From an uncultured Prochlorococcus sp. (GTDB lineage Bacteria > Cyanobacteriota > Cyanobacteriia > PCC-6307 > Cyanobiaceae): a DNA stretch of 63,430 nucleotides. Shown one piece after another: positions 16,792-40,700 of the stretch. The notes below the pieces were generated by a model. The model was not told the DNA's origin. It saw only the letters and a program-made list of their open reading frames with translations, and did not search any database. Position numbers and translations under genes: made by a program. Where the stretch lies: the NCBI GenBank assembly GCA_902634795.1, contig CACPLK010000003.1, positions 1-63,430 on the forward strand, given 5' to 3'. Each line of letters begins with the position of its first letter. Positions within the stretch are counted from its first letter, which is position 1.

Positions 16792-17589
16792 TTAGAGTAA
16801 AAAAGGTAATCTTTTGCTCTCCAAATTAAGAATTTTAATAGTTACAAAAAGTCCAATTACATTTAAGAAGAATAATAACATTGAATGCGCATAGTTTATG
16901 TAACCGTTGATTATACTCATTCTAATAGGATCTAAAATCTGATAAATGAAGTTTAAATTTGTTATCCACTCTAATGAACCTAAACTTTCTTTTCTATATA
17001 ATATTGGTGATGTCAAGAAAACTAATTGAAGTACTATAGGAACCAATTGTGCGATATCCGTAAAACGAACACTAATAAGACATATGATGACGGGGAACCA
17101 ATATATAAATACAAACAAATTCAAGAAAGGCAACCATGAATAAATCAACAAGTTATTTATCAAGTTAAATTTTAAAAAAAGGAAAACAATGAATACCAAT
17201 ATAAATGATTGAATAAAAGTCTGCAATTGGAAAGACCATTCCTCTAAAGTATAAAAAATAGGCTTAAGATTCATATTCTTTATATTTGATGAATTATGTG
17301 CAAATAGATTGGGTGCATTAGAAATAGATGAACTAATTGTATTCCAAATAACCAAACCAAATCCTAAATATATAAAATAAGACCGAAAGTCTTCAACTGA
17401 AAAAACTGTACCGTAAACAATTCCTAGAGTTCCAATAGATAATAAATTTGAAAAACCCAGCCAGAAACTGCCAAGAGTAGTTCTAGCGAACCTCGCTCTT
17501 GATCTTGAGGTGGCTGTATACCACCAAGCTTTTCTAGTTTTAAAAGCAAATTTAAAATTATCCAATAACATTTTTACGATAATAATCAT
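16792..17589 (-). CDS. ABC-2 type polysaccharide export permease (Wzm-like)
   Basis: 265 aa; multiple TM segments, RARFARTTLGSFWLGFSNLL, overlaps the Wzt-like ATPase ORF by 32 bp. Confidence 0.85.
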   Translation of the reverse strand: MIIIVKMLLDNFKFAFKTRKAWWYTATSRSRARFARTTLGSFWLGFSNLLSIGTLGIVYGTVFSVEDFRSYFIYLGFGLVIWNTISSSISNAPNLFAHNSSNIKNMNLKPIFYTLEEWSFQLQTFIQSFILVFIVFLFLKFNLINNLLIYSWLPFLNLFVFIYWFPVIICLISVRFTDIAQLVPIVLQLVFLTSPILYRKESLGSLEWITNLNFIYQILDPIRMSIINGYINYAHSMLLFFLNVIGLFVTIKILNLESKRLPFLL

Positions 17590-18934
17590 GCGTATGATAG
17601 TAATTCAAGGCAGCATCTAAAGGGCCATCATATGCAATTGATCCATGACTAAAAACAATGCCTCTATTACAAAACTGTTTTAAAAGCTCTTCAGAATGAC
17701 TAGCTAGAAATAAAGTTGCTGCGGATTCCATAAATTGTTTCATTCGCTCCTCTGCTCTATCACAGAAATCCGCATCACCAGTTCCAAAACCTTCATCTAT
17801 TGCCAAACAATCGTGAGGACTGGAAGTAAGAATTGAAAAAATCAATCTTGCAGACATGCCTTCACTATAGGTTTTGATAGGTAGCGAAATATATGAGCCA
17901 AGGCCGGAAAACTCAATAATTTCATTTAAGAAAAATTCAAAGCCTTCCAAACTATGATTTTTGAGTAAATAATGTGCCTTACAAGCATCAATCCCAGAGA
18001 GTTCTGCACTAGTAAGAAAAGTCTTTTGAAGCATTGGATACACTTCAACTAGAACGTTAATATTGCCAGTAGTAGGTAAATAAATACCTGAAATTAGCCT
18101 TAAAAAACTACTTTTCCCAGAGCCATTATGACCAATCAAGCCAACCCTTTCACCTTTCATAATAGTCAAATTAATATTATTTAGAGCGATAATATTAGTT
18201 CTATTTTTTGATTGATCTAATGCTCCTCCTGTAATATTAATTACTTTCTTTGCAAATCTCTTGGTAATTGATCTACTCTCAAGCTGATAAATAGGTATAG
18301 AAAGGGAAAGATCTTTAATCTTTATGGCTGGTTTTGTCAGCAAATTTATTGAAGAATCAGATAACGAAAAAATAACATTTTCTACCTCTTCAACAGAGGG
18401 TGGATCATCACATATATGATTAAGAAAATTAGATACTCTAATAAATGAGTTGCCTGATATCCACGGAGATATTGAATCGGGTTTGTATAAATTGATCAAA
18501 GTAATACTTTTACTTATTTGATTAGTAAATAGTTCTGCAGCCAAAGTTTTATTTTGTAGTATCTTTAAATCCTTTTTTTCTTGATCAGGGTTAACTGAAT
18601 AAGATTTACTACTTAAGGAAATTAATTCATATGCGATATCTGAAATTTGGCAGTTATTACTATTGATCATCTCCATCCAATAATTCAAACCTTCAAAATC
18701 TGCCTTCCTATTAAATAGATTTAAATATAATTTATTAATCTTAAATTCAAAAGATTTATCATGAGAAATATATTTTATATACTCATCTTGCCTAGATAAC
18801 TCATTAGATATTTCTCTTAAATTTAGAGATTCTTTAGAGCGGGAGAGCCAATAATTTATCCCAGATGGATCACCAGGTCTTCCAAAATATGCGACATATA
18901 ATTTTTGCAACTGATCAGATTCAACATTAATCAT
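17558..18934 (-). CDS. polysaccharide export ABC ATPase (Wzt-like) with N-terminal DUF4214-type module
   Basis: 458 aa; Walker A GLIGHNGSGKSS, signature YSEGMSARL, N-terminus LQKLYVAYFGRPGDPSGINYW; no C-terminal carbohydrate-binding domain. Confidence 0.88.
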   Translation of the reverse strand: MINVESDQLQKLYVAYFGRPGDPSGINYWLSRSKESLNLREISNELSRQDEYIKYISHDKSFEFKINKLYLNLFNRKADFEGLNYWMEMINSNNCQISDIAYELISLSSKSYSVNPDQEKKDLKILQNKTLAAELFTNQISKSITLINLYKPDSISPWISGNSFIRVSNFLNHICDDPPSVEEVENVIFSLSDSSINLLTKPAIKIKDLSLSIPIYQLESRSITKRFAKKVINITGGALDQSKNRTNIIALNNINLTIMKGERVGLIGHNGSGKSSFLRLISGIYLPTTGNINVLVEVYPMLQKTFLTSAELSGIDACKAHYLLKNHSLEGFEFFLNEIIEFSGLGSYISLPIKTYSEGMSARLIFSILTSSPHDCLAIDEGFGTGDADFCDRAEERMKQFMESAATLFLASHSEELLKQFCNRGIVFSHGSIAYDGPLDAALNYYHTHDYYRKNVIG

Positions 18935-18957: not shown

Positions 18958-21789
18958 TTATGCTTCCACTGTCTTTTGGGCTGGTTGAAACATAAACATA
19001 GAATAAATCACATTTCTTCTCATATTTATCATCATATCTAAAAACATATCATAACCTTCATTTTTGTATTCAATCAAAGGGTCTTTTTGTCCATAGCCTC
19101 TTAAGCCAACTGATTCTCTTAAGGAATCCATAGACTGCAAATGCTCCCTCCAAAGCGTATCTAATTGCTGAAGTATAAAGAATCTCTCAGCTTGTCTCAT
19201 TATTCCTGGATGAGTTTGTTCTACTTGAGCTTCCTTAATATCGTAAGCATTTCTTAGCTGCTCTTTCAAAAAATCTTTTAATTCATCTTTATTTAAACCA
19301 AGTAAATCCTCAGGTTTTAGATCTTCTAATAAATAGATAAATTCTTTCACTTTAGATACTAAATTTAATAAGTCCCACTCTTCCGGTGGTAAGTCTTCAT
19401 TAACGTACGCTTCAACTATCTCTTCCATAGTTCTTTGACCATATCCAATAACTTGAATTTTCAACTCTCTACCCTCTAATACTCTTCTTCTCTCTGAATA
19501 AACTGCTTTTCTCTGATTATTCATTACTTCATCATATTCAAATATTTGTTTTCTAATATCGTAATAATAAGTTTCTACTTTTTTCTGAGCACCTTCTAAA
19601 GAACGAGTAAGCATTCCGGACTCGATGGGCATATCTTCTTCAACACGAAAGGCATTCATAAGTCCAGCTACTCTATCTCCTCCAAATATTCGTAATAAAT
19701 TATCTTCTAATGATAAAAAGAAACGGGTACTGCCCAAATCTCCTTGTCTACCAGCTCTACCTCTTAATTGATTATCTACTCTCCTTGATTCATGTCGTTC
19801 AGTTCCAATGACATGCAGACCACCAACCTTACGAACATTAGCTTCCTCCTCGTTTAAAACCTCTTCATATTCTTTCTTTATTAGTTGAATTGCACTTCTT
19901 AGTTCCTCTATATTTTGATCCTTTGTAGGTGTTTTTTCCGCTGCAGTAGCAATATAATCTTCAAGTTCAATCGAACTTAAAGCTCTATCTCCCCATTCTT
20001 TAACTAATTTTGAAGCTAATGAAGCTAATTTTTGATCTGTATCTTCACTCAGTAAAACAGGGAAAATATTTTGACAGACTATTGATTGGATTTTCTTGGA
20101 AGCTTTGGTACTCGAATGTTGATCCTCCTTAAATCCAGACGCCTGAGAATTTCTTTGCAGAGGCATAGGGGGTTTATGTCCCTCCTCTGGCTTAACTAAA
20201 CGAGAGCTAAGAATTTCTTTTATTTTTAATCTAGCCATATAATCACTGTTGCCACCAAGAATGATATCCGTTCCTCTACCAGCCATATTAGTAGCAATTG
20301 TCACAGCACCTGATCTCCCTGCTTGAGCAACTATTTCAGCTTCTCTTTCAACATTTTCAGGCTTTGCATTTAATAAATTATGTGGGATTTCCTGTTCTGA
20401 TAAAAGGCTACTTAGCAACTCACTCTTCTCAACACTAGTAGTACCAACAAGAACTGGCCTCCCTTTTTTATGAATACCAGCAGTTTCTTTAGCTACGGCT
20501 CTCCATTTTGCTGATTCAGTTTTAAATACCTGATCAACCCAATCTTCTCTAGAAACTTTGCGATTGGTAGGAATAACAGTAGTCTCTAATTTATATGTTT
20601 TTTCGAATTCAACTTCTTCGGTTTTTGCTGTTCCTGTCATTCCTGACAATCTAGGATATAGAAGAAAGAAATTTTGATATGTAATTGAAGCCATAGTTTG
20701 AGTCTCAGGCTGAATAGGAAGATTTTCTTTCGCTTCAATTGCTTGATGTTGTCCATCACTCCATCTTCTTCCAGGCATTACTCGGCCAGTAAATTCGTCG
20801 ACAATGACAGCTTCTCTATCTCTGACTATGTAATTAACATCTTTGACAAAAAGCTCCTTAGCCTTTAATGCATTTGTTACGTAATGAGCCCAAGGATCTT
20901 TAGGATCGAATAAATCTTGTACTTTCAGAAGTTTTTCGGTTTTCGCAAAACCTTCGTCAGTAAGGATGCAACTCCTTTGTTTCTCGTCAACCTCATAATC
21001 ACCCTCTGGATCAATTCCATCTTTACTAGTATCTAAAGCCCGTTTTAAATTTGAGACTACTTGAGCTGCTCTTTGGTATTTTTCTTGCGGTCTCTCTACT
21101 TGTCCAGAAATAATCAGAGGAGTTCGAGCTTCATCTATCAAAATCGAGTCAACTTCATCAATAACACAATATTGGAAGTCTCTTTGAACAATTTCTGATC
21201 TATCAGCTGCCATGTTATCTCGCAAATAATCAAACCCAAGCTCAGAATTAGTTGCATAAGTAATATCGCACTCGTAATTTTTTTTTCTTTCCAAAGGTGA
21301 CATTGTTTGTTGCACCAAACCAACGCTTAAGCCAAGAAAACGATGTATCTGTCCCATCCATTCGGCATCTCTTCTTGCTAAATAGTCATTCACAGTAACG
21401 ACATGTACTCCTCTTCCAGTAAGAGCATTTAAGTAACTGGGCAGGGTCGCTACCAATGTTTTTCCCTCTCCAGTTTTCATTTCGGCTATTTGTCCTTCAT
21501 GAAGCACCATGCCGCCAATTAATTGGACATCAAAATGCCTCATTCCCAAAACTCTTTTCGAAGCTTCACGCACCACGGCAAAAGCTTCTGGTAGTAAATC
21601 ATCCAAGAGAGAAAGTTGTTCTTTTGAAGACAAATTTTCAAGTCTTGATCGAAACTCACCTGTACGAGCTCTTAATCCTTCGTCACTTAAAGAAATTAAA
21701 TCCTCTTCAAAAATATTCACATCGGACACAAGAGGAGTAAATCTTTTAAGCTTCCTCGTATTGGGGTCACCTAGTAAATTCGCAAACAT
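18958..21789 (-). CDS. secA: preprotein translocase ATPase SecA
   Basis: 943 aa; [45 protein letters not shown]. Confidence 0.98.
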
Positions 21790-22028: not shown

Positions 22029-23096
22029 GTGAGTCAAAGCAAAACTGCACTTATCACAGGCATAACAGGTCAAGATGGGAGCTATCTAGCAGAACTTTTA
22101 CTGAAAAAAAAGTATCAAGTTCACGGAATCATTCGACGTTCGAGCCAAGAGAATACACAGCTACTAAATGAAATAATAAATACTCAGGAAAGCAATCTCA
22201 GTCTTCATTATGGTGACTTAACTGATAGCACTAATATTTTAAGGATTATTCAAGAGATACAGCCTGATGAAATCTATAATTTAGGCGCCCAAAGTCATGT
22301 GAAAGTTAGTTTTGAAGTTCCAGAATACACGGCTCAAACTGATGCCTTAGGAGCGCTGAGGATTCTCGAAGCGGTAAGAATACTTGGATTAGATAAAAAA
22401 ACAAGAGTTTATCAAGCAAGTACCTCTGAATTATATGGTTTAGTACAAGAAATCCCTCAAACAGAAAAGACAGGGTTTTATCCAAGGAGTCCTTATGCTA
22501 TAGCTAAATTATTTGCATATTGGACAACAGTTAACTATCGAGAGTCATATGGAATATTTGCTTGTAATGGCATTCTTTTTAATCATGAATCACCCAGAAG
22601 AGGAGAAGCTTTTGTTACCAGAAAAATTACTAAGGGGCTCGCAAGAATTGACCAAGGTCTTCAAGATTCTCTTTACATGGGAAATATTGATTCACTAAGA
22701 GACTGGGGTCATGCAAAAGATTATGTAGAAATGCAATGGCAAATGCTTCAACAAAAAGAACCTGATGATTATGTTATTGCAACTGGCAAGCAATCATCAG
22801 TAAGAGAATTTATAGAACTTTCGGCAAAAAAACTTAATTGGGGGGGGATTTCATGGGAGGGATCGGGAGTAGATGAAGTTGGAAAAAGAATTGATTCAGG
22901 AGAGACGGTTATAAAAATTGATCAAAAGTTTTTTAGACCATCAGAAGTTGAAACACTATTGGGAGATGCAACAAAAGCATTTAAAAAACTCCAATGGAAG
23001 CCAAAAATAACTTTAGAGGATTTAGTATCAGAAATGATTGAGCACGATTTAAATAGAGCAAAAAAAGAAAAATCGTTCAATCAAATATCTACATAA
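22029..23096 (+). CDS. gmd: GDP-mannose 4,6-dehydratase
   Basis: 355 aa; [45 protein letters not shown] start. Confidence 0.93.
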
Positions 23097-23129: not shown

Positions 23130-24311
23130 ATGGCATTTGATTTTAATTTATTATTATTAGATACAAGCATTTCAGAACATGCAGAGAAAGTAAGCCAAAA
23201 CAATATAGATGAAGAAATAACCTATTATATTGATAATAATATTGGCTGGAACTATCTAGATAGATATTATAATTCAACTGGAAGATGGATAACATTAGAT
23301 GATGATATAAGAACCTTTAGCATTGGACATAGCAATCACATTAAAGATGAAATTCGTAAATTATTCATACAAATTGATGAATTGATTGATTTAGATTTTA
23401 AAGAAATGTCTCATAACAATGGTTCAGAGATTGATATCTACTGTATTAATTACTCATCAAATATGGAGGAAGATGCAGTCGGCCAAGCAATCCCACAAGA
23501 TTCAAATAGTGGTGCATGGTGGGAGTTATTATGGAAAAAAACTGATTCCAATAAAACTCTAAATAATTTAGATAAGAATACTATTATTCATGAAATTGGA
23601 CATGTACTAGGACTTTCTCACCCGAATAATGATCCCTTTAATCAAAAATGGAATACTCAAGACACGGTAATGTCATACAACAAAGGAGATGAGGAATGGA
23701 ATCCATGGTTCTCAGAAGGTGATATTAAAGCTCTGATTAGTTTATGGAAAAGAGAAGATGACTTAGGATATATAAACTTCAATGGAAAAAGTTCAGATTA
23801 TAAATTTTACAAAAATGAAGATACTTACTCTATCAAAAGTGAAATTGGTCTTGAAGATATTAGTAAAATAGAAACTATTAATTTCTCTGATAAAAGCTTA
23901 TCTTTAACGTACGATATCAAAGAGGTTTTCAATCAAATAATTGGAATTGATGATATTACTGGAAAAATATATAGACTTTATAATGCAGCATTTGCAAGAT
24001 TTCCTGATAATGGTGGATTAAAATATTGGATAAATAATCATCAATCAAATATAGATACTTATCGACAAATAAGCCATGCATTCATACAATCAAAAGAGTT
24101 TATAAGTTTGTATGGAGAAAACAGTTCAAACGAAAATTATATCAATAAATTATATTTAAATATTTTAAATAGAACTCCAGACAATGATGGAAAAAATTAT
24201 TGGATGGGACAACTAAACCTAAACCTAGAGTCTAGAAGTGAGATTCTTATGGGATTTTCAGAGTCTCAAGAGAATAAAAGTATTTTTTCAGAGGAGACAG
24301 GGATCACATAA
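23130..24311 (+). CDS. metzincin (M10-like) zinc metalloprotease with C-terminal DUF4214 domain
   Basis: 393 aa; HEIGHVLGLSHP zinc motif, VMSYN Met-turn, LYNAAFARFPDNGGLKYW...LYLNILNRTPDNDGKNYW. Confidence 0.85.
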   Translation: MAFDFNLLLLDTSISEHAEKVSQNNIDEEITYYIDNNIGWNYLDRYYNSTGRWITLDDDIRTFSIGHSNHIKDEIRKLFIQIDELIDLDFKEMSHNNGSEIDIYCINYSSNMEEDAVGQAIPQDSNSGAWWELLWKKTDSNKTLNNLDKNTIIHEIGHVLGLSHPNNDPFNQKWNTQDTVMSYNKGDEEWNPWFSEGDIKALISLWKREDDLGYINFNGKSSDYKFYKNEDTYSIKSEIGLEDISKIETINFSDKSLSLTYDIKEVFNQIIGIDDITGKIYRLYNAAFARFPDNGGLKYWINNHQSNIDTYRQISHAFIQSKEFISLYGENSSNENYINKLYLNILNRTPDNDGKNYWMGQLNLNLESRSEILMGFSESQENKSIFSEETGIT

Positions 24312-24614: not shown

Positions 24615-25337
24615 ATGGAGCTTCCAAGTTTTTTATCAAAAGAAACAAATTATGAATTACATGATTTAGGTTTTCTCCAAGAGATAATAAAAGGTATTGT
24701 AGTAAGGAACATAATTAAAGATATTCATATAGAAAAAGCTAAAATTGATGAGAATATTAATAATTTTTGTAAATCAAATAAAATTGAAATTGATAAATAT
24801 GATGAGTGGCTAATAAAAAACTCTTATTCTAAAAAATCTATGGAAATAAAATTAACAGCAAGTGAACGAATTCAAATATATTCAAAAGATAATTTCAATG
24901 CAAAAGTAAAAGCAAGGTTTCTAGATAAAAAAAACTACTTAGACAAAGTAGTATATAGTTTAATAAGAGTAAAAGATTATTACAAAGCGAAAGAACTACA
25001 TATGAGAATTTCCGAAGGGGAAGCAGATTTTGGTGATATTGCTTCTGAGTTTTCTGAAGGACCCGAAAGCCTTACCAGAGGGATTGTAGGACCTGTAGAA
25101 CTAGGATCTTCACATCCATTATTATTGCAAAAATTAAAATCTTTAGGAAAACATGAGCTATATTCAGATATTATAGAAATTAATAATTGGCATTTAATAT
25201 TGAGATTAGAAAATCATATACCTAGCAAGCTAGATGAAAATATGGAATCTTTTATGCAAAAAGAATTATTTGAAGAATATATAACTTCAGAGTCAAAGAC
25301 TATATTAAATAATCTTTTTGAAAAGGGATTAATATAA
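24615..25337 (+). CDS. parvulin-type peptidyl-prolyl isomerase
   Basis: 240 aa; AKELHMRISEGEADFGDIASEFSEGPESLTRGIVGPVEL; no N-terminal signal peptide seen. Confidence 0.82.
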   Translation: MELPSFLSKETNYELHDLGFLQEIIKGIVVRNIIKDIHIEKAKIDENINNFCKSNKIEIDKYDEWLIKNSYSKKSMEIKLTASERIQIYSKDNFNAKVKARFLDKKNYLDKVVYSLIRVKDYYKAKELHMRISEGEADFGDIASEFSEGPESLTRGIVGPVELGSSHPLLLQKLKSLGKHELYSDIIEINNWHLILRLENHIPSKLDENMESFMQKELFEEYITSESKTILNNLFEKGLI

Positions 25338-28271
25338 ATGAATTCTATAAAGGAAATATTAATACAAGTAGAAGGATTTAATAACCTAAGTGATGATATA
25401 TATGAAAAAATTTCTTCTTCATGCAAAATCTTATCTTATAAAATTGGCTATCAAATTTTATTATCTGAAGTCATTCCAGATAATATCTTAATTATTTTAG
25501 AAGGTGAAGCCAGATTAATAGGCACAAATAAGGGAATTAAGACAACTATTCTTAAATTAAAATCTGGTCAAATAATTGGACTTGCATCAATCCTAAGGGC
25601 TAAAGGATGTGAAAATATTTCTGCCTCTGAAGATACTAAAGTTTTATCAATACCTGTAAAAACTTTTCTTGATATATACCAAAGCGATGAATCTTTTCAA
25701 AGTTGGTGTAATAATTATGTAAGTCCAGCTGAAATACTTTCATTAACCGAAGAACTCATTAAGCAATCACCTAGATCAGATATTAATATTAGAGCCGCCT
25801 TTCAAATAATTTTTAAAAATTGTAACCTAATTCTTGATAAGATAATCTCTGATAATTCAAAAGAAAGTCAGTATATATATTTTTTAAGTAGTGGAGGAGT
25901 AAATAATAAAGAATCTTGGGATACTCTAAATGAGGATGAAAAACTTGAAACAAGAAGTTTTTCTCCTGCTCGTATATTCAAATTACCTTTGAATATTTAT
26001 AATGAGTTTTATAATATGTCTGAAAGAAATAATAATAAAGAAATTAACAAGGAATATGATAAAAAAATAGAAGATGCGCCAGTATCACCATCCGCTATTT
26101 CTATTGATATTGGGCAATACGATCCAAAACAAAGTTTTAAATTAATTACTGCTAAAGGTCCAATTCAAGAGTCTCTAGCTTGTTTACAAATGTTAGCCAG
26201 CTTCATGGACATTCCTTTTAGGAAAGACTCCATTGAAAAGATTTTGAGAGATGAAATTCGAAGAGGGAAGCAACCATCAATATATCTTATAGGTTCAATT
26301 TGTAGATTACTTGGACTTCAGGCTAACGGAGGCATTATTGATTCAGAATTCGGCACACGCTTACAAGTACCTTCAGTGATTGGATGGAAAGGTAGTTTTG
26401 CGATAGTTAAAGAAAGTTCGTCAAAGGGAATAATAATTGCATCACCGGTTTCAGGCATTATTGAAATTAAAGCAGAAGAAATAATTAATGAATTCCCAGA
26501 AGGGATTCAACTTCTGTTAATAGAAAAAAGTATATCTACTCCAAACAATAAATTTGGAATTAATTGGTTTTGGCCATCACTTAAAAAATATAAAAATGTT
26601 TTATTCCAAGTATTAATTGCTTCTTTTGTTGTTCAACTTTTCGGATTAGCCAACCCTCTACTAATACAAGTAATTATAGATAAAGTAATTTCTCAAAGAA
26701 GTCTTGATACACTGCAAATACTTGGAATAGCCTTAGTTGTTGTAACAATATTAGGCGGAGTAATTGGCAGTTTGAGATCATTTTTATTCACGGAAACAAC
26801 AAATAGAATAGATATGAGATTAGCCTCAGAAGTAATTGATCATCTTCTAAGATTGCCACTTGGTTATTTTGATAATCGTCCAGTTGGTGAGCTTGGGAGC
26901 AGAGTAGCTGAATTAGAAAAAATCAGAAATTTTCTCACTGGCCAAGCTTTAACTACCATTTTAGATGCAGCTTTTTCTGTGATTTATATCGTTGTCATGT
27001 TGATTTATAGCTGGCTACTTACTCTTATTTCATTAGCCGTTATCCCCATTCAAATTGGATTAACTCTTCTTGGTGCCCCACTTTTTAGAAGACAAATCAG
27101 AGAAGTCGCAAAAGAGAATGCTAAAACCCAAAGCCATCTTGTTGAGGTTCTTACTGGTGTCCAAACTGTAAAAGCACAAAATGTAGAAACTGTGAGCAGA
27201 TGGAAGTGGCAAGATCTTTACACACAATACATATCTAGGACTTTTGAAAAAACTATCACTGGCGTTGGGCTAAGCGAAACTAGTAAAGTTCTTCAACAAC
27301 TTTCTCAATTAATGGTCCTATGGGCAGGTGCTTCTTTAGTTCTTGCAGGAGAACTATCTTTAGGTCAATTAATTGCATTTAGAATAATCTCAAGCTATGT
27401 CACTCAACCACTTTTAAGGCTTAGTACTATTTGGCAAAATATACAAGAATTAAAAGTCTCATTCGAGAGACTGGCAGACATAATTGACACCCCTCAAGAA
27501 TCCAATGAAGCTGATAAAGCAAATATCCCTATTCCTAAAGTTTCAGGAAAAGTAAAATTTGATAATGTATCATTTGCCTTTAATCCCAGCAGTCCATATG
27601 TTTTAGAAAATATAAATTTAGAGATAGAAGAAGGAACGTTTGTTGGAATTGTAGGTCAAAGTGGAAGCGGTAAAAGTACTTTAATGAAGCTTCTACCTAG
27701 ACTTTACATACCTAATCGAGGAAGAATAATCGTTGATAATTACGACATCAACAAAGTAGAGTTATATTCATTAAGACGACAGATAGGAATAGTCCCTCAA
27801 GACCCACTTTTATTCTCTGGGACAGTTAGCGAAAATATTGCTCTTTCTAATCCGGAGGCATCAAGTGACGAAATTGTTGAGGCTTCAAAAAACGCAAATG
27901 CTCATGACTTTGTTATGGATTTACCAAATGGATATAGTAGTGATGTTGGAGAGAGAGGATCAGGGCTTTCTGGAGGTCAGCGCCAACGTATCGCAATTGC
28001 TAGAACACTTTTATCAAAACCAAATTTATTAGTTTTAGACGAGGCTACAAGTGCATTGGACTATGACACTGAGAATAGGGTTTGTTCTAATCTTCGTAGT
28101 TCATGCAAAGGGATAACCGTTTTCTTCATTACTCACAGATTAAGTACGATAAAGAACTCAGACATTATTATTATGATGCATCAGGGATCAATAGCAGAGA
28201 AAGGAACCCATGAAGAATTGATGAAGTTAAAAGGAAGATATTTTGCTCTATACCAACAACAAGAATCTTAA
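25338..28271 (+). CDS. T1SS ABC exporter (HlyB-like) with N-terminal cyclic-nucleotide-binding-like fold and degenerate C39-like domain
   Basis: 977 aa; ILIILEGEARLIG..., QESLACLQMLASFMDIPF, TM domain, GQSGSGKSTLMKLLPRLY, GLSGGQRQRIAIARTLL. Confidence 0.9.
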   Translation: MNSIKEILIQVEGFNNLSDDIYEKISSSCKILSYKIGYQILLSEVIPDNILIILEGEARLIGTNKGIKTTILKLKSGQIIGLASILRAKGCENISASEDTKVLSIPVKTFLDIYQSDESFQSWCNNYVSPAEILSLTEELIKQSPRSDINIRAAFQIIFKNCNLILDKIISDNSKESQYIYFLSSGGVNNKESWDTLNEDEKLETRSFSPARIFKLPLNIYNEFYNMSERNNNKEINKEYDKKIEDAPVSPSAISIDIGQYDPKQSFKLITAKGPIQESLACLQMLASFMDIPFRKDSIEKILRDEIRRGKQPSIYLIGSICRLLGLQANGGIIDSEFGTRLQVPSVIGWKGSFAIVKESSSKGIIIASPVSGIIEIKAEEIINEFPEGIQLLLIEKSISTPNNKFGINWFWPSLKKYKNVLFQVLIASFVVQLFGLANPLLIQVIIDKVISQRSLDTLQILGIALVVVTILGGVIGSLRSFLFTETTNRIDMRLASEVIDHLLRLPLGYFDNRPVGELGSRVAELEKIRNFLTGQALTTILDAAFSVIYIVVMLIYSWLLTLISLAVIPIQIGLTLLGAPLFRRQIREVAKENAKTQSHLVEVLTGVQTVKAQNVETVSRWKWQDLYTQYISRTFEKTITGVGLSETSKVLQQLSQLMVLWAGASLVLAGELSLGQLIAFRIISSYVTQPLLRLSTIWQNIQELKVSFERLADIIDTPQESNEADKANIPIPKVSGKVKFDNVSFAFNPSSPYVLENINLEIEEGTFVGIVGQSGSGKSTLMKLLPRLYIPNRGRIIVDNYDINKVELYSLRRQIGIVPQDPLLFSGTVSENIALSNPEASSDEIVEASKNANAHDFVMDLPNGYSSDVGERGSGLSGGQRQRIAIARTLLSKPNLLVLDEATSALDYDTENRVCSNLRSSCKGITVFFITHRLSTIKNSDIIIMMHQGSIAEKGTHEELMKLKGRYFALYQQQES

Positions 28272-29359
28272 TGAAAAATAATTTACTGCAAAAAACTAAA
28301 AATCTTTTTAATGAAAATGTTAAAAGTTATTTTGTCACCAATAATTTATTAGAAAAAGCTCAAGATCTGTATAATAAAAATATTAAAAATCACTTTGTCT
28401 TCAATAATAATTTATTTCAAAAAACTCAAGATCTTGTTGAAAAAAATATCAAAAATAATTCCCAGGATGTCTTATTAAAACAATCTCCTTTTTGGGCTAG
28501 ATCAATCACTTGGACATTAATAGGAGGGACATTTTTTGGAATTGCCTGGTTGAGTTTTGCTAAAACTGAAGAAATAATTATTGCACAAGGAAAATTAGAA
28601 CCAATTAAAAAAGTAATTGATGTTCAAATGCCAATTGAAGGAATAATTACAAAAGTACTTATTAAAGAAGGAGAGCAAGTTAAAAAAGGTCAAAAACTGA
28701 TTCAATTAGATACTGAAACTTCAAAAAGCAAATTAATAAGTCTCGAAAAAAGTCTAGAAATTAACAGTCTTATTCTTGACAAACTCAAAGTATTAAAAGA
28801 AGAGGGGGCTGTTTCGGAACTGCAATATTTACAACAACAGCTTAAATTAACTGAATTGAAAAGCGCAATTACTGCAGAAAAAGTAATTTTAAAATACCAA
28901 AATATTATCTCCCCTTCAGATGGGATAGTTTTTGATTTAAAACCAAGTGGCCCAGGTTTTGTAGCAAGGACAAGTCAACCAATTTTAAAAATAGTACCCT
29001 TAGATAATTTAAAAGCAAAAGTTGAAATAGATAACAGATCAATTGGTTTTGTTAGTGTCAATAAAAAAGTTGATATCAGTATTGACTCATTTCCATCAAA
29101 TGATTTTGGTGTTATTCAAGGAAAAATTAGTAGTATTGGATCTGATGCACTACCTCCGAACCCATCACTGGGTTTAGGTTATAGATTTCCTGCAAATATA
29201 GAAATGAGCTCTCAATTCATTAAACTGACAGATGGAAGTCAACTCCCATTACAGCCAGGGATGAGTCTTACAGCTAATATTAAATTGAGAAAGGTAAGTT
29301 ATCTACAACTTCTTTTAAATACTTTTCAAGACAAGGCAGATTCACTAAGAGCACTTTAA
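28271..29359 (+). CDS. T1SS membrane-fusion/adaptor protein (HlyD-like)
   Basis: 362 aa; single TM, QMPIEGIITKVLIKEGEQVKKGQKLIQLDTETSKSKL, IISPSDGIVFDLK. Confidence 0.9.
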   Translation: MKNNLLQKTKNLFNENVKSYFVTNNLLEKAQDLYNKNIKNHFVFNNNLFQKTQDLVEKNIKNNSQDVLLKQSPFWARSITWTLIGGTFFGIAWLSFAKTEEIIIAQGKLEPIKKVIDVQMPIEGIITKVLIKEGEQVKKGQKLIQLDTETSKSKLISLEKSLEINSLILDKLKVLKEEGAVSELQYLQQQLKLTELKSAITAEKVILKYQNIISPSDGIVFDLKPSGPGFVARTSQPILKIVPLDNLKAKVEIDNRSIGFVSVNKKVDISIDSFPSNDFGVIQGKISSIGSDALPPNPSLGLGYRFPANIEMSSQFIKLTDGSQLPLQPGMSLTANIKLRKVSYLQLLLNTFQDKADSLRAL

Positions 29360-29409: not shown

Positions 29410-30093
29410 ATGGATAAACAAAAGAAATTTTCTCTAGAAAATATAGATATTCAATATAAAGAATGGTTTAGACCAGGAATGGGTACAGAAAATGTAGGAC
29501 CTTTTCTGCAATCTCTTATTGGATTAACTAGACCACAAAGAATTCTTGAAATCGGGGTAGGTTACACTACACCATTTTTAATAGAAGGAATAAATAAAAA
29601 TAATAAATTCTGGGTAGAAGAAATAAATGCAAATAAAAAATATGTAGAAGAAACTATTTATAAATATGATCCGAAAATGGTAATCATTGATGATAATTCG
29701 TTAGGTCAATCAGTTGGAGAAAAGATAAAGAATAAATTAGAAAGTTGTTCTTTCCTAGAGATAGTTGAAGATAAATTTCAAGGCAAATCTAAATATCTAT
29801 TAGAGAAATACGGAAAATTTGATTTTGTTTGGTTTGATTGTGGAGGTAGAACCGAATACACTGAGTTCTTAGAAGAATATTGGGACATATGCTCAGAATA
29901 TGTAATTTTTCACTACACTTACCATGATGGAAAACCTAATGATTTACTGCTAGCAATATTAAAAAATATAGGACCACCTTGCTTTAGACTAGATATAGTT
30001 GAACCACATAAATCAAGGCAAGGAAGTATTACTGTTTTAAGAAAAGCAATAGTTCCAACCCTGAAAAATTGTCACCCTAATATAGAAGATTAG
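29410..30093 (+). CDS. SAM-dependent methyltransferase-like protein
   Basis: 227 aa; RILEIGVGYTTPFLIEGI, KFDFVWFDCGG. Confidence 0.65.
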   Translation: MDKQKKFSLENIDIQYKEWFRPGMGTENVGPFLQSLIGLTRPQRILEIGVGYTTPFLIEGINKNNKFWVEEINANKKYVEETIYKYDPKMVIIDDNSLGQSVGEKIKNKLESCSFLEIVEDKFQGKSKYLLEKYGKFDFVWFDCGGRTEYTEFLEEYWDICSEYVIFHYTYHDGKPNDLLLAILKNIGPPCFRLDIVEPHKSRQGSITVLRKAIVPTLKNCHPNIED

Positions 30094-31677: not shown

Positions 31678-34600
31678 TTAGATTGTGTATTCGAGGTCAG
31701 CACTTGTAATAACAGCACCTGTGGTGGTTATTGTACCAACGTGTGTAATATCGCCGGTTGCCCATGTATCGTTAGCTGTTGCACCACTATATACATAAGC
31801 TTTGTTGACACTAGGATCGTTAAATACGAAGGCGTGGTCGTCGTTAGAAGCTTGAGTCAAGATTGCATTTAAGGCGGTAGCAACTACAGCTGCGGTAGGT
31901 ACTGTACCAGCAGTAATTGTAGTGGCTCCAGTCAGATCAGCCATGTTTGCGAAGACTATCGCTGCAGTATCAGCAAGGTCGACTGAAGCAGCGTTGGCAG
32001 CCGCGTCAACTGCTGTAGCGCCTAAGTTACCGGATCCAAGAACTTCGATATTAATTTTGTCGGTTCCTGGAACAAAGCCGGTAATGACATCAACACCGTT
32101 ACTTGCTGCTGCGGAGAAGATAGCTTTATCAACAGAAGATGTTGATTCTGTGAAGTCGATAATGTCTGCTCCAATACCACCGGTAACGATGTCAGCACCT
32201 TCACCAGGAGTGAATGAGTCAACAAAATCAGAACCAGTGATTGTGTTTGCCGCTGATGAACCTATTACGAAAGAACCATAAGGACCTGTTATAGCATCAA
32301 GATTGACATGCTCGAAACCAGACTGAATTGAGGGATTTGGATTGCCTTCGTATAGGGACATCTGGTCAGCCTGAGTAAGGTCAATTGAGAATCCACCAAT
32401 AACGCCTGCTCCAGTAACGGTTAGGGTATCTCCAGTACCTGCACCTGCTTTAGCTATGTCACCTGCAACGTTGAAAATGAAGGTGTCATTTCCAATCGAA
32501 CCTGTGAAGTCAATGGCTGTTGAAGTATCAGCTCTTCCAGTCATGATGTAAGCACCACCAGTAGTCATGCCTGAAGCGTCAATCACTGTCGTGTCAACGT
32601 GATGAGCACTAACAGTTAGAGCTTTGTCTCCAGTAACAACAAGCTTGTTTCTCTTACCTGCTGTAGCCATAGCTAATCCATCAAGACTCACACTTGAATC
32701 AGATGTTTCATTCTTAAGGTTGATTGTCTCAACATCAGCAATATCAATATTCGTACCAGCTGCTACGCCACCAACTTCAACACTTATTGAGTTATCTGCG
32801 CCAGACTTGTTTGCTTGATCTAGTACGTAGACAGAAGAAGCATTTTCACTTGTAATTTGAACGATTGTTGAGTCTTCAAGCTTGTTAAGGGTAATTGTCT
32901 CAGCGGTGTTGTCGTCATCAACGTTAATTTGCTTAAGTCCAGATGCCTTACTAGCATCGAAGGTCATATTTGTAGCTGCATTAATTGTCAACGTCTCAAC
33001 TCCAGTCATTGAGCTAACAGCAACTGAAGATCCAGAAGTAACAAGTGTGTCAGTACCTGCTGAACCAGTAATTGTCATGGTATTGACAACTTTGTCAGCA
33101 GCGAAAGTCGTTGATGTTGTACTTCCTAGGAACGTCGAGTAATCAATTGTCGTCAAACTCGCAGGTGAGTGAATCGTTGCGATAGTGAAGGTAGATAGAC
33201 CATCTCCACCGGTAACTTTAAAGGTAGTGGCTGTATCAACCCCTTCACCATCAGCTGCAGTAACGGTAACTTGCGCGTTAGCGCCTACTCCGTAATTAAC
33301 AGTTTCAAAGTTATTTGAGTCCTCAGTAATGTCTCCATCAAGTGTGTAGTTAAGTACGTCAGTACCTGCTCCAGCATCCTCAGTAATAGTTGCAGAACCA
33401 GTTACGGTGTAAGTGTCATCACCTGATCCGAAAGCAATTACGTCAGTAGTTCTTGCCGTTTTCTTAGTAACTGTTGTATTGCCTGAACCAGCTGTAAGAG
33501 TTAATGAACCAATAAAGTTTGATGCATCAATTGTTGTTGTATTGACGTGAAGCTGTCCGAGTTTAAGAAGCTCAGCTGCAGTACCTTCAGTAACAACAAT
33601 TTTGTCTACTTTTGCATCGCTAACTGTGAAATTAGCATCGGCATCGGCTGTATCATCATCGTTATGCTTGATAGATAGCGTTTCGATACCATCGCTTAAT
33701 TTGATGGTTGCAGTGATGTCGTCATTAGAACCAGTAACAGTTGTTTCAATTGCAATAGTGTCAGCAGTACCAGTCTCATCTGCTAGTGAAAGATCAACAG
33801 TTCCCTTGAATTCATCATTAGCATCAAGATCACCAAGAAGATAGGTTAAACCTGCTGGAAGACCAGTTGCTTTTACAGTAGTAGTTGTTGTATTTGCAGT
33901 ACCAAGCTTCACTTTAGAAGCACCAGTTATTCCTGATCCGTCTATGTAGTTAGAGCCGGAGCTAATAATGTGGATATTTTCTACGTCTGCAATATTTAAC
34001 TTGGAGTAGGTAACAACATCACCAAGATTGGCAATGGTTGCTGTCAATGTATCTCCAGTTGTTGTGCTGTCTCCACCACCCTTAATAGTGTCGTAAGTAC
34101 TAAGGGTTGTTCCCATTGTGAAGGTATCGTCAAAAGCTCCACCAGTTATAGAAAATGGCTTAGCAGCAGTTCCAAGAGCTGGTGCAGTAATTACAAATTT
34201 CGCAGCAAGCGCAGAAGCATCAACATCGAGTAAATTCGCTGCAGTTAGACCAGAAATTGTAAAGTTAGCGTCTCCAGTAGCGTTCAAAGATGTAGCAGCA
34301 TTAAAAACACCACTTGTAAGAACGTTGCTATCAGAAGCAGCTAACATAGCAGTAGTGCCATGAGTGCCTGACTTAATATTGATGGTTTCTACATCAGCGA
34401 AAGTCAAGGTTGCAGCGACTGATTCAGCATCTAGAGCTGTTACTCCTAAAATTTCAAGATTACCGATATCTGAAGAACCAGAAGCATCTTTCAAAGAGAC
34501 AGTGTAAGCATTACCGTCCTCGTCATCAGTACCACCTAAAAATGCGACTGTATCGCCAGGTGCGATGTTGTTAACTGTCGCAGATATGTTATTAGTTGCG

Positions 34601-36192
34601 TTCTGTACTACCTCGTATCTTGTAAGACTATCGCCATCTGCATCCACTGAAAGTGCTGTACCAGCAGTTGATGTAAGCCTAATAGTCTCTACGTTCGTGA
34701 GAGTTCGATCAGTGAACTTAAGTGCTGTTCCAATTGAAGCACCTGTGATTTCAACTCTGTCTGTACCAGCTCCAGTATCGATCTTATCGTTTACGGTAAG
34801 AGTAGCTCCAAGCTGAATTACGTCATCATTTGTTCCACCTTTAACATCAAGAGTTGCAGCCTCGTTACCTAAATCAGAGGTAAATTTACCTGTAAAAGCA
34901 GATGCATCAATTGTTGCATCAATAGCTACTCCATTAGTTGGAGTGCCTGCGTAGCCAGTAACAGTTGTAAGTACTAACTCTGTATCACCTGTAATGTTAA
35001 GTGTTTTAAGTGTATCTGCGGTTAAAGCAGTAAGAGTATTTTTTGAAACTTTACTGTCGATATTTACTGTCTCAACACTGTTGACAGTAAATGTTCCAGC
35101 TGTTTGAGCTGCAAGTAATAAATTCTGGGTATCGTCAGTTCCGGTAACAACTTGAACTCCGTTATAGGTAAGAGTTAAATCAGCTGAACCATTACGCATT
35201 TCAGCGTCTACAAAATTAGGTAATTTTGTAAAAGCTGTTCCACCAGAAGAAGATGATGCAGAAAGTCCAACTGTAGTTAGACCAGTCATTAGACCAGTTT
35301 CTACATTGTTAACTCCACTACCAGTTTCAAAGTTTGATAGTACAAACTTTTCAACGTTATCTGTAGTTACCGCGCTGAGTGTATGGGTAGCATTATTTGC
35401 GCCATTTAAACCCGCTACTGAAATCTGAACAGTATCAGTACCACCTTTACCATCTACTGAATCCCCTGGAGCAATTGTAGTTCCAGTGCCACCACCAGTT
35501 TGAAGGACACCATTAATTGTGTCATTGAGTGAATCACCAACCAAAGCATCGGTTGATGTAGTGAATTTAAGAGTTGAACCTACAGCGGATGAACCAGAAC
35601 CAGTAGAAGATGCAGTGATCATTGCTGCAATTCCTGTATCTACTCCTGCATCAGTATGTGCTGTAGTTGTGATACCACTTATGAAAGAAGCGCCTGATTC
35701 AAAAGCTGTTCCAGTTTTCCAAGGATCAGTTGACTCTGGTTGATAAGCAAGGATTGCAGATGTACTTGCTTCAATATCAGCTGTGAAGGCTTCAGCAGCT
35801 GCGACTTTATTGCTTAACGCAAGTGCATCAGCTGCACCTTGAGTTTCATTACCAGAGACTGGATTACTAGCAGCAGCAATCAAGTCGTAAGCAATATTCG
35901 AAAGTGTTAAAATTCCAGCTTCAATCTGCCCGGTCCAATAAATCAAACCAGAAGCATCTGCTTCTCTTCCAAAAAGGTTTTGATAAAGGGAATTTACCTG
36001 AGCTTCTGTTGACTTATCTCCGACAGTTGAATTTTTATATTCGTCTTGTGCGTAAATTTTGTCAGCAAATTCTCTTGCTGTAGAGATTCCGCTGGTTGAA
36101 GATAACCAGTATTTAATACCCGCTGGATCGCCAGGACGGCCGAAGTAAGCGATGTACTGCTGTTGTAGTTGGGTTGCTGTGAGTGTGGACAT
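31678..36192 (-). CDS. giant S-layer/adhesin-like T1SS substrate with N-terminal DUF4214-type module and degenerate RTX-like beta repeats
   Basis: 1504 aa; no cysteine seen; LQQQYIAYFGRPGDPAGIKYW...LYQNLFGREADASGLIYW; repeated GAGTD...NVETI; C-terminal NTITGSDFVDSFTPGEGADIVTGGIGADIIDF. Confidence 0.9.
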   Translation of the reverse strand: MSTLTATQLQQQYIAYFGRPGDPAGIKYWLSSTSGISTAREFADKIYAQDEYKNSTVGDKSTEAQVNSLYQNLFGREADASGLIYWTGQIEAGILTLSNIAYDLIAAASNPVSGNETQGAADALALSNKVAAAEAFTADIEASTSAILAYQPESTDPWKTGTAFESGASFISGITTTAHTDAGVDTGIAAMITASSTGSGSSAVGSTLKFTTSTDALVGDSLNDTINGVLQTGGGTGTTIAPGDSVDGKGGTDTVQISVAGLNGANNATHTLSAVTTDNVEKFVLSNFETGSGVNNVETGLMTGLTTVGLSASSSSGGTAFTKLPNFVDAEMRNGSADLTLTYNGVQVVTGTDDTQNLLLAAQTAGTFTVNSVETVNIDSKVSKNTLTALTADTLKTLNITGDTELVLTTVTGYAGTPTNGVAIDATIDASAFTGKFTSDLGNEAATLDVKGGTNDDVIQLGATLTVNDKIDTGAGTDRVEITGASIGTALKFTDRTLTNVETIRLTSTAGTALSVDADGDSLTRYEVVQNATNNISATVNNIAPGDTVAFLGGTDDEDGNAYTVSLKDASGSSDIGNLEILGVTALDAESVAATLTFADVETINIKSGTHGTTAMLAASDSNVLTSGVFNAATSLNATGDANFTISGLTAANLLDVDASALAAKFVITAPALGTAAKPFSITGGAFDDTFTMGTTLSTYDTIKGGGDSTTTGDTLTATIANLGDVVTYSKLNIADVENIHIISSGSNYIDGSGITGASKVKLGTANTTTTTVKATGLPAGLTYLLGDLDANDEFKGTVDLSLADETGTADTIAIETTVTGSNDDITATIKLSDGIETLSIKHNDDDTADADANFTVSDAKVDKIVVTEGTAAELLKLGQLHVNTTTIDASNFIGSLTLTAGSGNTTVTKKTARTTDVIAFGSGDDTYTVTGSATITEDAGAGTDVLNYTLDGDITEDSNNFETVNYGVGANAQVTVTAADGEGVDTATTFKVTGGDGLSTFTIATIHSPASLTTIDYSTFLGSTTSTTFAADKVVNTMTITGSAGTDTLVTSGSSVAVSSMTGVETLTINAATNMTFDASKASGLKQINVDDDNTAETITLNKLEDSTIVQITSENASSVYVLDQANKSGADNSISVEVGGVAAGTNIDIADVETINLKNETSDSSVSLDGLAMATAGKRNKLVVTGDKALTVSAHHVDTTVIDASGMTTGGAYIMTGRADTSTAIDFTGSIGNDTFIFNVAGDIAKAGAGTGDTLTVTGAGVIGGFSIDLTQADQMSLYEGNPNPSIQSGFEHVNLDAITGPYGSFVIGSSAANTITGSDFVDSFTPGEGADIVTGGIGADIIDFTESTSSVDKAIFSAAASNGVDVITGFVPGTDKINIEVLGSGNLGATAVDAAANAASVDLADTAAIVFANMADLTGATTITAGTVPTAAVVATALNAILTQASNDDHAFVFNDPSVNKAYVYSGATANDTWATGDITHVGTITTTGAVITSADLEYTI

Positions 36193-36718: not shown

Positions 36719-37678
36719 ATGAAACGAAAAGCCTTAGTCTTTGGATGTACTGGTCAAGATGGGACTTACCTCTCCAAGTCGCTATTAGACAAAGGTTTTG
36801 AAGTGATTGGCACCTCGAGGAAAAATAAACCTAATTTAAAGCGATTAAAAACTCTAGGTATAGATGATCAAGTACAACTAATTTGCTGCGATTTAGAGCA
36901 ATTTACTCAGACTAAAAACGCAATCGAGAAATTTCAGCCAAGAGAAATTTATAATTTATCAGCTCAATCGTCAGTAGGAAACTCCTTCAAAAAACCACGT
37001 GAGACTTACAAAAGTATCATCAATACGACAATAAATATACTTGAAGCATGTAGAGAATTTAAGTTCAAAGGGAACATTTTTTTCGCAGGAAGTGGAGAAA
37101 TTTTTGGATCAACCAATACTGCTGCAGACTTAAATTCTAAAATCGATCTTAGAAGTCCATATGCAAATGCAAAGTATCAAAGCTTTTTACTAACAAAAAT
37201 GTACAGAGAAATTTATAACTTAAAGTGCGAAACAGGAATTCTATTTAATCATGAATCGCCACTAAGAGATGAGAATTTTGTACTAAAAAAAATCATTAAC
37301 AGAGCAATTAAAATTAAAAAAGGAATATCTAAAGAGTTAATACTGGGCAATATAACAATAAAAAGAGATTGGGGATACGCTGAAGAATACGTCGAAGCAA
37401 TGCAATTAATTAGCAGAGCTAGAATCAAAAAAGACTATCTAATTTGTTCTGGGAAAAGCTATAGGCTTCAGGATATTATCGAGATAGTATTTAATAAGTT
37501 GGGGTTGAATTGGAAAGATTATGTAACAATATCTAAAGATCTTTTTAGAAAATCAGAAATCGAAGAAAGTAAAGGAAACCCTCAAGCAATTAATAATGAT
37601 TTAAACTGGAAAGCAACCACAGATATTCAAACATTAATAGATATTTTAATAGAATATGAACTGCAAAATGATAAGTAA
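36719..37678 (+). CDS. GDP-mannose 4,6-dehydratase-like SDR (second paralog)
   Basis: 319 aa; [52 protein letters not shown]. Confidence 0.88.
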   Translation: MKRKALVFGCTGQDGTYLSKSLLDKGFEVIGTSRKNKPNLKRLKTLGIDDQVQLICCDLEQFTQTKNAIEKFQPREIYNLSAQSSVGNSFKKPRETYKSIINTTINILEACREFKFKGNIFFAGSGEIFGSTNTAADLNSKIDLRSPYANAKYQSFLLTKMYREIYNLKCETGILFNHESPLRDENFVLKKIINRAIKIKKGISKELILGNITIKRDWGYAEEYVEAMQLISRARIKKDYLICSGKSYRLQDIIEIVFNKLGLNWKDYVTISKDLFRKSEIEESKGNPQAINNDLNWKATTDIQTLIDILIEYELQNDK

Positions 37679-37714: not shown

Positions 37715-40700
37715 CTAAAATACTTTTTTATTTAACTCTAGACCTCTCACAAGACCCTGTAAACGTCTTCCTAAAAGACTAAACCTATGTTGCTTTCGCC
37801 AATTATTAGCTTTCACTTGCAGATTGCTATTAATACTCTTTATTGATTTTGATTTTTGAAGCCAATTATGTATACCTTCTGCAATATCTTGCGCAGAGAT
37901 TCCAGGCAAATTATGAACAACATTTTGTAAGTCATCAAAAATAGGAATTGGAGTAACCAGAACATTAGGTCCAGCAGCAAGACCATGCCTTACAGAGGCG
38001 CTAGATGATTCATTTGAAGATTGATAAGGAAAAACTATGAGATCTTGCTTGGAAAGATTAATTAAAGTTTCCGAATCAGTATAGTAGCAAGAATCTATCT
38101 TTAAACATTTACCAAGTTCTAACAGATTAATTTGATCATTCAATTCATCAAAATATTGGGTCGATATCTTTGCGGAATGAATTGCTGTATATAAAGTAAG
38201 ATCTATATTATAATTCATACTTTTTAAAATTTTAACCGCATGAATTAACTCTAAAAATCCTTTATTAGGTAAACAGAATCCATAGCTTGCGATACAAACT
38301 TTATTATTATTTGATAAACTTGATAATAAGTTAGAACTTGTATAATTAGATTGATCAAAATCCAATACTCCATGAGGAAAAATAAATGAATTGAAACCTA
38401 ATCCTATATCTTTTAATCTATTTAAATCTCTTGGTGTATGAACCAATATTCGATCACATTTAGCCAATGAGTCTCTTATATTGATAAGAGACTTATCTGA
38501 ATTATCATTTGGATCTATCGTAGAATGGAGATAAATTATTATTCTTATATCATTACTTGAAAGGTTATTTATAAACTTAGATAACGCTTTGAAATTAAAA
38601 AATCCATAATTAAATTGTATAATTGCCGTAGTAATTTTTTTATTTAAAATTTCATTTAACATTATATCAAGATCCTGCACAAATTTATCATCAAGATCCC
38701 AACAACGAATTACGTTGTTTTCATCGTGAATATGAGTTTCTTCTTTTGGTGCGAAAATTGTTACCTTGTCAGAAATAAAGTCAACTAAGTGTTTAGAATA
38801 AGATGCTATTCCACATCTAGAATTCCACGTGGTAATCCACCCAATTCTTGTAGACCTTGAATAATCAAATGTAGTTAATTTCTTAGCAAAATCAAGGTTA
38901 ATCTCAGCTACTGAATCCCATGTAAATTTCTGAATATTACTTCTGGCTTTTTCAATTTTGCTGCGTAACTCTTCATTGGTTGAATTATAAACCTCAAGCA
39001 TTCTATCAACTATTTTTTCTACTAACGGTTGCGCCCAAACAGAAGAAACCAAATTAAAATGAGTCTTAGAGTATTTATATTCAAAATCAATAAGCCAACT
39101 GTTCTCTGAATTACAAAAATCAAGTTGACCACTCCAATCTGTAGTAATCACTGGTAAGTCCAGCAGCATCGCTTCTGCAATTGGTAATCCAAAACCCTCT
39201 CCTAAACTTGGGGCTATAAGTGCATCTGAATATTGATACAGTGCTTTCATCCTTGAATCGCTGAAGTCTTGATCTAATACAACAACATGAGGATAATTAG
39301 GATTATCAGATTTAACCTGATTAAGAATTTTAAATATATTGTTGTGTGGATTATGTGAGGTCTTGATAATTAGACTGACATCATCATATTTATTAAATGC
39401 CTGTCCAAAAGCTTTTAAGAGATGAATTATTCCCTTCCTGGGAAAGCAGGAAGAAACATGTAAAAAATTATATTTTTTAGAATTAACAGTAAAATTCTTT
39501 TCGGGCACTGAATGATAGATATGTTCAATTCCTAGACCACAAACTTTAATAGGAATTGAAACTCCGTTATTAATAAGTAAATTCTTTACAAAAGAACTCA
39601 TAACTGATATTCCATCCAAATGTTTATTAAAATTATCTACCCATTCGCTAGGAAATTCTGTTTCTTCCCATCCATAAGCATGTAAAAGTTTTAGTTGACC
39701 GTCAAAATCATCAACTCTTGGTGGATAAAGATTACGACTTGAAATGTCACATTTAACTTGTTCACGTTTATGTATATCTAATATTCTTTTATAACCCGAT
39801 AAGAAAGACAGGTCAGGGTTATAATCTCCTGGCCCATCAGTACAATTTATATATATATCAATTTCTTTGTGCGACATAGCCTCAGTAAAATTCCTGTTTA
39901 AAATTGCTAAGCTGTAATTTGAGTCAATGGGACCTTCAATTTTCCATTTAAGATCTTTGGAAAAATCTAGATTACATTTATAATATTGTTTAGCTTGATC
40001 ATCTATTAATGTTATTGCAGAGGCTATCTGTTTAATTAATATATCATTCTCAATTTTTTGGATATTAGTTTGATTGAAAATATTTCGAAGATTATCTATT
40101 AAAATCTGATAGGGAGATATATTATCTATCACTTCTGAATGAATTCTATTTTGAATTATTATTTCTATAGATTTAAATAACTTTTCAGTAGTAGATTTCC
40201 AAGAAAAAAGATTAGATTTTGTTATTGAATTTTTTATCAATCTATTATAAAATTCATGATCAGTTAAAGAACGTTTTATTAAATTAGTCATTGAAGATAT
40301 ATCTAAAGGGTTAAACATAGCTTCTTTTATTCCAACAATTTCAGGAAGGCTACTTGAATTAGATGAAATCACAGGAGCCCCGCAGCACATTGCTTCTAAA
40401 ACTGGCAACCCAAAACCCTCATGTAAAGAAGGAAAAATAAATAATTTACACTTTCGATAAAGTGTCACTAAGAACTCATCAGAAACATAACCTAAAATAA
40501 TAATTTGATTTCTTTTCAGATCACATTCTTCTATACACTTTTCTAGTAAATTAATCTCACTGTCAAATAACTTACCTGCAAGTACTAACTTATACTTTTT
40601 TCTCAAATTTATCGGAATATTTGAATAAGCTTTGATTAAACCCTGAAGATTTTTTCTAGGGTCTCCAGCTCCTGAATAAAGCAAGAATTCACCAAAATTA

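Follow-up and report, generated by a model that had tools for sequence, protein, structure and literature searches.

What would the N-terminal module of a secreted protein do on the cytoplasmic ATPase of a polysaccharide exporter? The question arises from the 63,430-nucleotide stretch of Prochlorococcus DNA analysed here (the window), in which one uninterrupted open reading frame on the minus strand (17558-18934, 458 amino acids) codes for a Wzt-type ATPase. Its first 174 residues align without gaps to the N-terminus of a secreted giant of 1504 residues (31678..36192, minus strand), with 75 of the 174 positions identical (43%; BLASTP, single comparison, E 5e-41). The initial annotation had proposed a shared N-terminal module of about 180 residues and of DUF4214 type, and both proposals hold: the two modules are homologous, and DUF4214 (PF13946) scores 36.7 and 44.4 bits in them, above the Pfam gathering cut-off of 23.2. 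BLASTP and Pfam, together with an AlphaFold2 model, assign the tandem module to residues 1-177 of the ATPase (18404..18934, minus strand), and BLASTP and Pfam place it at residues 1-174 of the giant (35671..36192, minus strand). Correlative evidence, presented below, suggests that the two copies share a function and that this function is probably the recognition of the exported glycan.

The module of the ATPase contains two repeats (LYxAYFGRPxDPxGxxYW and LYxNLFxRxADxxGLxYW) followed by a helical part with the motif YxPxSxxPWxSG. A linker delimited by orthologue alignment and the model (residues 178-203, 18326..18403, minus strand), including a helix at residues 181-190, leads into the nucleotide-binding domain (residues 204-450, 17585..18325, minus strand), where Pfam identifies ABC_tran. 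The Walker A sequence GHNGSGKS spans residues 268-275 (18110..18133, minus strand), and all 29 fused orthologues conserve G268-H-N-G-S-G-K274, residues S357, G359 and M360 of the signature, D380-E381 and H413. The best PDB relatives of this domain are polysaccharide exporters, led by RfbE (9qhw, E 2e-45) and followed by TarH, an A. aeolicus-type Wzt and TagH. The gene overlaps by 32 bases with that of its partner, a Wzm-type permease (16792..17589, minus strand; ABC2_membrane, 2e-09; NCBIfam galactan Wzm, 1.2e-24, below the cut-off). The intact ABC motifs, the exporter relatives and the adjacent permease identify the protein as a Wzt-type ATPase, in agreement with the link to surface-polysaccharide export that had been drawn at the outset. 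Its score against the NCBIfam model of galactan exporter Wzt proteins (NF050108) is 187.7 bits, far under the cut-off of 400.

To our knowledge, the substrate-recognition domains of Wzt proteins are C-terminal jelly rolls, and we know of no N-terminal module in the exporters that lack a carbohydrate-binding domain (CBD), such as those of the galactan type and of Klebsiella O1/O2. The window's protein resembles the jelly-roll Wzt proteins (PF14524; E. coli O9a, Aquifex aeolicus) in that a further domain is attached to the exporter ATPase, yet its module is N-terminal, all-helical and of DUF4214 type, and Pfam finds no Wzt_C (PF14524) in the 458 residues. With the CBD-less exporters (galactan type, NF050108; RfbE, PDB 9qhw/9qfx; Klebsiella O1/O2) it shares the lack of Wzt_C and the adjacent Wzm-type permease. 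CBD-type transporters recognize the chain cap (PMC9445017). The Klebsiella O1/O2 exporter has no CBD, and CBD-less exporters such as that of Klebsiella O2a function without a recognition domain (PMC11231755).

The lack of a C-terminal domain, noted in the initial annotation, is borne out by these searches. The accompanying hint that the N-terminal module had taken its place is not, as the orthologues of sister genera are already bare. These orthologous ATPases are 50-55% identical to the fused one, have frames mostly of 250-300 amino acids without the module, and showed no Wzt_C in those scanned. For example, genome G062 has an unfused, bare Wzt in the same slot (SecA-Wzt-Wzm-CysE-GntR). Wzt_C was detected in the Wzt proteins of genomes G071, G174, G299 and G326; the Wzt_C-type gene lies between SecA and CysE in G326 and adjoins CysE in G174. 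The unfused state without Wzt_C in sister genera thus indicates that a module was gained and that no C-terminal sugar-binding domain was lost. Most simply, the module would have been added to an ATPase that already lacked such a domain rather than replacing one.

Of the 41 genomes of this Prochlorococcus genus, about 30 contain the fused frame, and several of those are finished (single-contig). It also occurs in the single-cell genomes AG-402-I20, -M18, -M23, -G06 and -L09, AG-424-E20, AG-409-D14 and AG-436-C14 and, cut short, in AG-315-B03. An artefact of assembly or single-cell amplification could be suspected because the window's own assembly is fragmented (69 contigs, 61% complete) and because chimeras do occur in single-cell assemblies. 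One such case is contig 31 of AG-424-E20 (15.5 kb), which has the same ATPase gene at both ends in inverted orientation and is probably a chimera of whole-genome amplification. With the same fused frame in about 30 independently assembled genomes, finished ones included, with coherent divergence and in one tree, we rule out an artefact as practically impossible. The survey for fused ATPases that the initial annotation had called for recovered a recurrent fusion and not an isolated accident.

When 74 modules are placed in a tree with other genera as the root, leaving out the two very divergent ATPase modules of G056 and G344, the ATPase modules group in one clade (SH-aLRT 100). This clade falls within the secreted modules of the genus (98) and stands beside those of window-type giants (90). 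In an unrooted tree that includes G056 and G344, the ATPase and giant labels need one change only. We conclude that the fusion is genuine and genus-wide, arose once and brought in a module of secreted origin. The simplest reading would be a single move of the module, from a secreted protein onto the ATPase, in the ancestor of the genus. Recent swapping of modules between giant and ATPase is ruled out by the single clade of ATPase modules.

Would a module acquired in this way need a ligand at all? It could be a passenger of a chance fusion, kept because its removal is costly or because it stabilizes the ATPase. Its protein-level evolution, about four times faster than that of the ATPase domain, is consistent with this idea, as is the identity of only 31-38% between the window's module and the most divergent ATPase modules (G056 and G344). 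Yet omega is 0.21 for the module versus 0.057 for the ATPase domain (13 close genomes), so the module is under purifying selection while diversifying faster than the domain it is attached to, and it has been retained across a genus of small genomes. Furthermore, identity still reaches 85% or more at 33 of 176 positions in both the ATPase and the giant module sets, and the conserved polar positions common to both include R19, D22, Q49, E51, N67, N72, R76, D79 and D122. Together, these observations make a mere passenger improbable.

The genomic setting of the module ties the exporter to the giant. The order at the locus is CysE-[Wzm-Wzt]-SecA-[Gmd-M10 protease-PPIase-HlyB-HlyD-...-giant-Gmd2-glycosyltransferase-methyltransferase]-RibH-MutS. 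Directly upstream of the ATPase gene is secA (18958..21789, minus strand), which is retained in genomes that have lost the blocks on both sides. The second block starts on the plus strand with a GDP-mannose 4,6-dehydratase (gmd, 22029..23096; TIGR01472, 542 bits against a cut-off of 415) and an M10/serralysin-like protease in which domain searches find a tandem DUF4214 at the end (23130..24311). A type I secretion operon follows, also on the plus strand, with a SurA/PpiC-like peptidyl-prolyl isomerase (PPIase, 24615..25337), an HlyB-type ATPase/permease (25338..28271) and an HlyD-type adaptor (28271..29359). The HlyB-type transporter has an unusual accessory architecture, in which a cNMP-binding-like domain at the N-terminus is combined with a C39-like region, and it aligns over nearly its full length to most relatives in the family. 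Between this operon and the giant are a 2OG-Fe(II) oxygenase (30090-30767) and an unassigned, possibly methyltransferase-like frame (29410-30093). Beyond the giant are a second GDP-sugar dehydratase/epimerase-like enzyme (Gmd2, 36719..37678, plus strand), a 1216-residue protein with two group-1 glycosyltransferase stretches (37715..41365, minus strand) and a SAM methyltransferase (41378..42565, minus strand). The gmd, glycosyltransferase and methyltransferase genes are glycan genes at the same locus as the exporter and the giant.

The giant has no cysteine in its 1504 residues, and the HlyB, HlyD and PPIase genes are in the same cluster. A search against the PDB returned no relatives at E values up to 0.1. 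We refer to the giant as S-layer-like, a putative assignment made only from its composition and its gene context. The secreted and cytoplasmic copies of the module also differ in composition: 18 of 29 ATPase modules contain cysteine versus none of 27 giant modules, and ATPase modules are near neutral whereas giant modules have a mean net charge of -8.3. These contrasts would suggest that each copy fits its own surroundings.

Gene order at the locus is kept, with small differences, in G161, G110, G056 and G173, and the ATPase and giant genes share a contig, about 14-35 kb apart, in some twenty genomes. In G279, G339 and G369, the Wzm-Wzt block and the giant/T1SS/glycan block are both cleanly missing, and secA and the outer flanks are contiguous. 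G215 exemplifies the decay of the surface locus in progress (L102, G215:C12:1-20000): its ATPase gene is reduced to module fragments, the Wzm frame is broken, Gmd and methyltransferase remnants persist in the second block, and the giant and T1SS genes are gone from the locus. A SecA tree separates the two losses, with G279, G339 and G369 in one clade (96) and G215 as sister of the intact G185 (96). The fact that two blocks flanking a retained housekeeping gene were lost together twice is good evidence for a single functional unit. Linkage extends to other genera, where module-bearing giants are adjacent to a Wzt gene in G299 and lie about 10 kb (G174), 22 kb (G037), 24 kb (G071) and 28 kb (G062) from one; the Wzt proteins concerned are bare or carry Wzt_C. 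Conserved synteny, joint loss and this linkage support, by correlation, the functional tie between exporter and giant that had been postulated.

Proteins with DUF4214 outside the locus offer a second view of what the domain depends on. The number of matches per genome is zero in G279, G339 and G369 and one in G215 (a 91-residue stub), versus 1-22 in the other 37 genomes. As proof of glycan dependence we down-weighted these counts: after subtraction of the roughly three matches of the locus itself, at most one DUF4214 match elsewhere is likewise left in 6 of the 20 intact genomes whose completeness is 85% or more, and three of the four loss genomes form one clade. G279 and G215 keep another PPIase-HlyB-HlyD system without DUF4214, and type I secretion as such therefore does not need the domain. 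This points, though not conclusively, to a dependence of DUF4214 on the glycan side rather than on type I secretion, since the HlyB of the locus itself is missing from G279 and G215 too.

A nearly identical DUF4214 stretch of about 90 residues forms the exact C-terminus of many otherwise unrelated proteins of the genus, most of which look secreted (protease, RCC1-like repeats, esterase-like, cyclophilin-like). The set comprises the window's protease (23130-24311), L159, L161-L165 and L001-L004, with the consensus ...LYxNVLGRxxDxxGLNYWxGQLNNGxETRYEVLLGFSESxENKxLFTEMTGFG. This tail looks like a common C-terminal secretion or anchoring tail. At another site (L135, G360:C3:94500-99500), two adjacent proteins, the products of a recent tandem duplication, differ hardly at all in their DUF4214 modules (tree distance 0.005).

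The AlphaFold2 model of the module (m6d5574350af4) is all-helical except for a short hairpin (pLDDT 90.9, pTM 0.88), and that of the full ATPase is fair (pLDDT 83.9, pTM 0.72). Foldseek matches of the module in the PDB are mostly phycobilisome linker domains, with 3osj on top (probability 0.98, E 0.26, TM 0.34 by query and 0.47 by target), and the named top matches in BFVD are DUF4214 or uncharacterized proteins that point to no function. The linker domain (PF00427) is the nearest solved fold, but it works in a different cellular setting. An hhalign comparison of module and PF00427 is collinear and weak (E 0.013, single comparison), which makes homology at the sequence level suggestive only. 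A remote kinship of these two widespread cyanobacterial domains is possible. Neither sequence searches nor the listed fold matches related the module to a known carbohydrate-binding domain.

The resemblance to linkers raises a serious rival explanation, in which the module is a protein-protein connector that tethers Wzm/Wzt to another inner-membrane machine (for instance HlyB/HlyD or a complex of glycosyltransferases) and thereby brings export of the glycan and secretion of the giant to one site. Docking of this kind would agree with the unusual accessory region of HlyB and with the occurrence of DUF4214 in cytoplasmic-looking TPR and methyltransferase proteins of other cyanobacteria. The distribution of the proposed partner argues against it: the HlyB family of the cluster is widespread (221 of the 321 Cyanobiaceae genomes), whereas the full module was found in only six genomes outside the genus. 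Furthermore, the T1SS of G279 and G215 persists without DUF4214, and the secreted modules would have no obvious cytoplasmic partner once outside the cell. We therefore consider docking to another protein rather unlikely, though by far not negligible.

The initial annotation had also invoked the S-layer protein RsaA of Caulobacter crescentus, whose N-terminal domain binds O-antigen and needs calcium (PMC6978808). As in the window, a type-I-secreted surface protein has an all-helical N-terminal domain, and the parallel extends to the protease: Caulobacter Sap is a serralysin-type protease with the same module as the surface protein (PMC3034196), and the window's M10/serralysin-like protease likewise carries the module type of the giant. 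The anchor modules themselves differ, with no detectable homology. RsaA is absent from the 50 PDB fold matches listed for the module and from its profile hits against the PDB; hhalign of the module against the RsaA N-terminus (residues 1-249, sequence checked against PDB 5n8p) gives a probability under 1%; and the RsaA N-terminus scores the Pfam family RsaA_NTD (PF19198), not DUF4214. RsaA is thus an analogy and cannot be cited as a homologue. Our literature search found no report of an RsaA module on an exporter ATPase. Nor did we find a DUF4214 fusion to a polysaccharide-exporter ATPase described in that search, whose coverage left out most subscription journals.

Two modules that follow the same variable glycan should diverge in step to a degree not explained by phylogeny. 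No such covariation is seen: the partial correlation between ATPase and giant modules is -0.02 (p 0.58, 24 genomes), and their identity is the same within a genome (0.330) as between genomes (0.332). A weak signal (partial r 0.26, p 0.04) hinges on a single divergent genome, G056. The proposal that both modules are tuned to one variable ligand, strain by strain, finds no support in these data; a common ligand with a conserved core is possible. The lack of covariation is also compatible with the docking of the ATPase module to another protein.

The same result weighs on a further explanation, in which the ATPase module pairs with the N-terminal module of the giant before or during type I secretion, when the N-terminus is last out, and so matches glycan export to the amount of S-layer-like protein. 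Both proteins carry homologous modules, their genes are kept close and lost jointly, and the RsaA N-terminal domains contact each other in the lattice, a precedent for self-pairing of anchor modules (PMC6978808). Direct pairing is difficult to reconcile with the lack of covariation and with the divergent chemistry of the partners, the secreted form being acidic and cysteine-free and the ATPase form near neutral and often cysteine-containing. In addition, the substrates of type I secretion are thought to be unfolded in the cytoplasm. A sensor of this type seems improbable, to about the same degree as a passenger.

Recognition of the glycan remains the best explanation. On this view, the ATPase drives a Wzm/Wzt exporter through which a lipid-linked surface polysaccharide crosses the inner membrane, and it would have acquired its tandem DUF4214 module in the ancestor of the genus, from a surface giant secreted by the type I route. 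The module may bind the lipid-linked polysaccharide in the cytoplasm and deliver it to the Wzm channel, doing from the N-terminus the job of the C-terminal jelly-roll CBD in other Wzt proteins. On the cell's exterior, modules of this kind would keep the giant and further DUF4214 proteins attached to the polysaccharide after its export. Three elements of this model are inferred: binding of glycan by the module, a glycan ligand common to both copies, and a gating of export by that binding.

This reading draws on the 43% identity and 33 of 176 shared positions, the single nested clade, the joint losses, the absence of DUF4214 (or its reduction to a stub) in the loss genomes and the proximity of giants to Wzt genes in other genera. 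Against it count the nearest fold, a protein-protein connector, the lack of covariation and the lack of a CBD or RsaA match. The requirement of RsaA binding for calcium (PMC6978808), which is scarce in the cytoplasm, also counts against a glycan ligand for the ATPase module, as does the operation of CBD-less exporters such as that of Klebsiella O2a without any recognition domain (PMC11231755). On balance, we judge that the module recognizes the glycan for export, and shares its ligand with the module outside the cell, with a likelihood that falls somewhat short of even. Because the module comes from a secreted protein, and because exporter and giant were lost jointly, the proposal is a concrete hypothesis and more than a loose analogy.

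More tentatively still, tandem DUF4214 modules may be a new class of glycan-recognition domain that operates on both sides of the envelope. The ATPase copy would select the polysaccharide for export, and the secreted copies, N-terminal in giants and C-terminal tails in many other proteins, would anchor to the same polysaccharide. If true, an exporter and surface-anchored proteins could use one recognition module, moved from a secreted protein, and DUF4214 would have its first function. Surface-layer anchoring would then become testable in one of the ocean's most abundant phototrophs.
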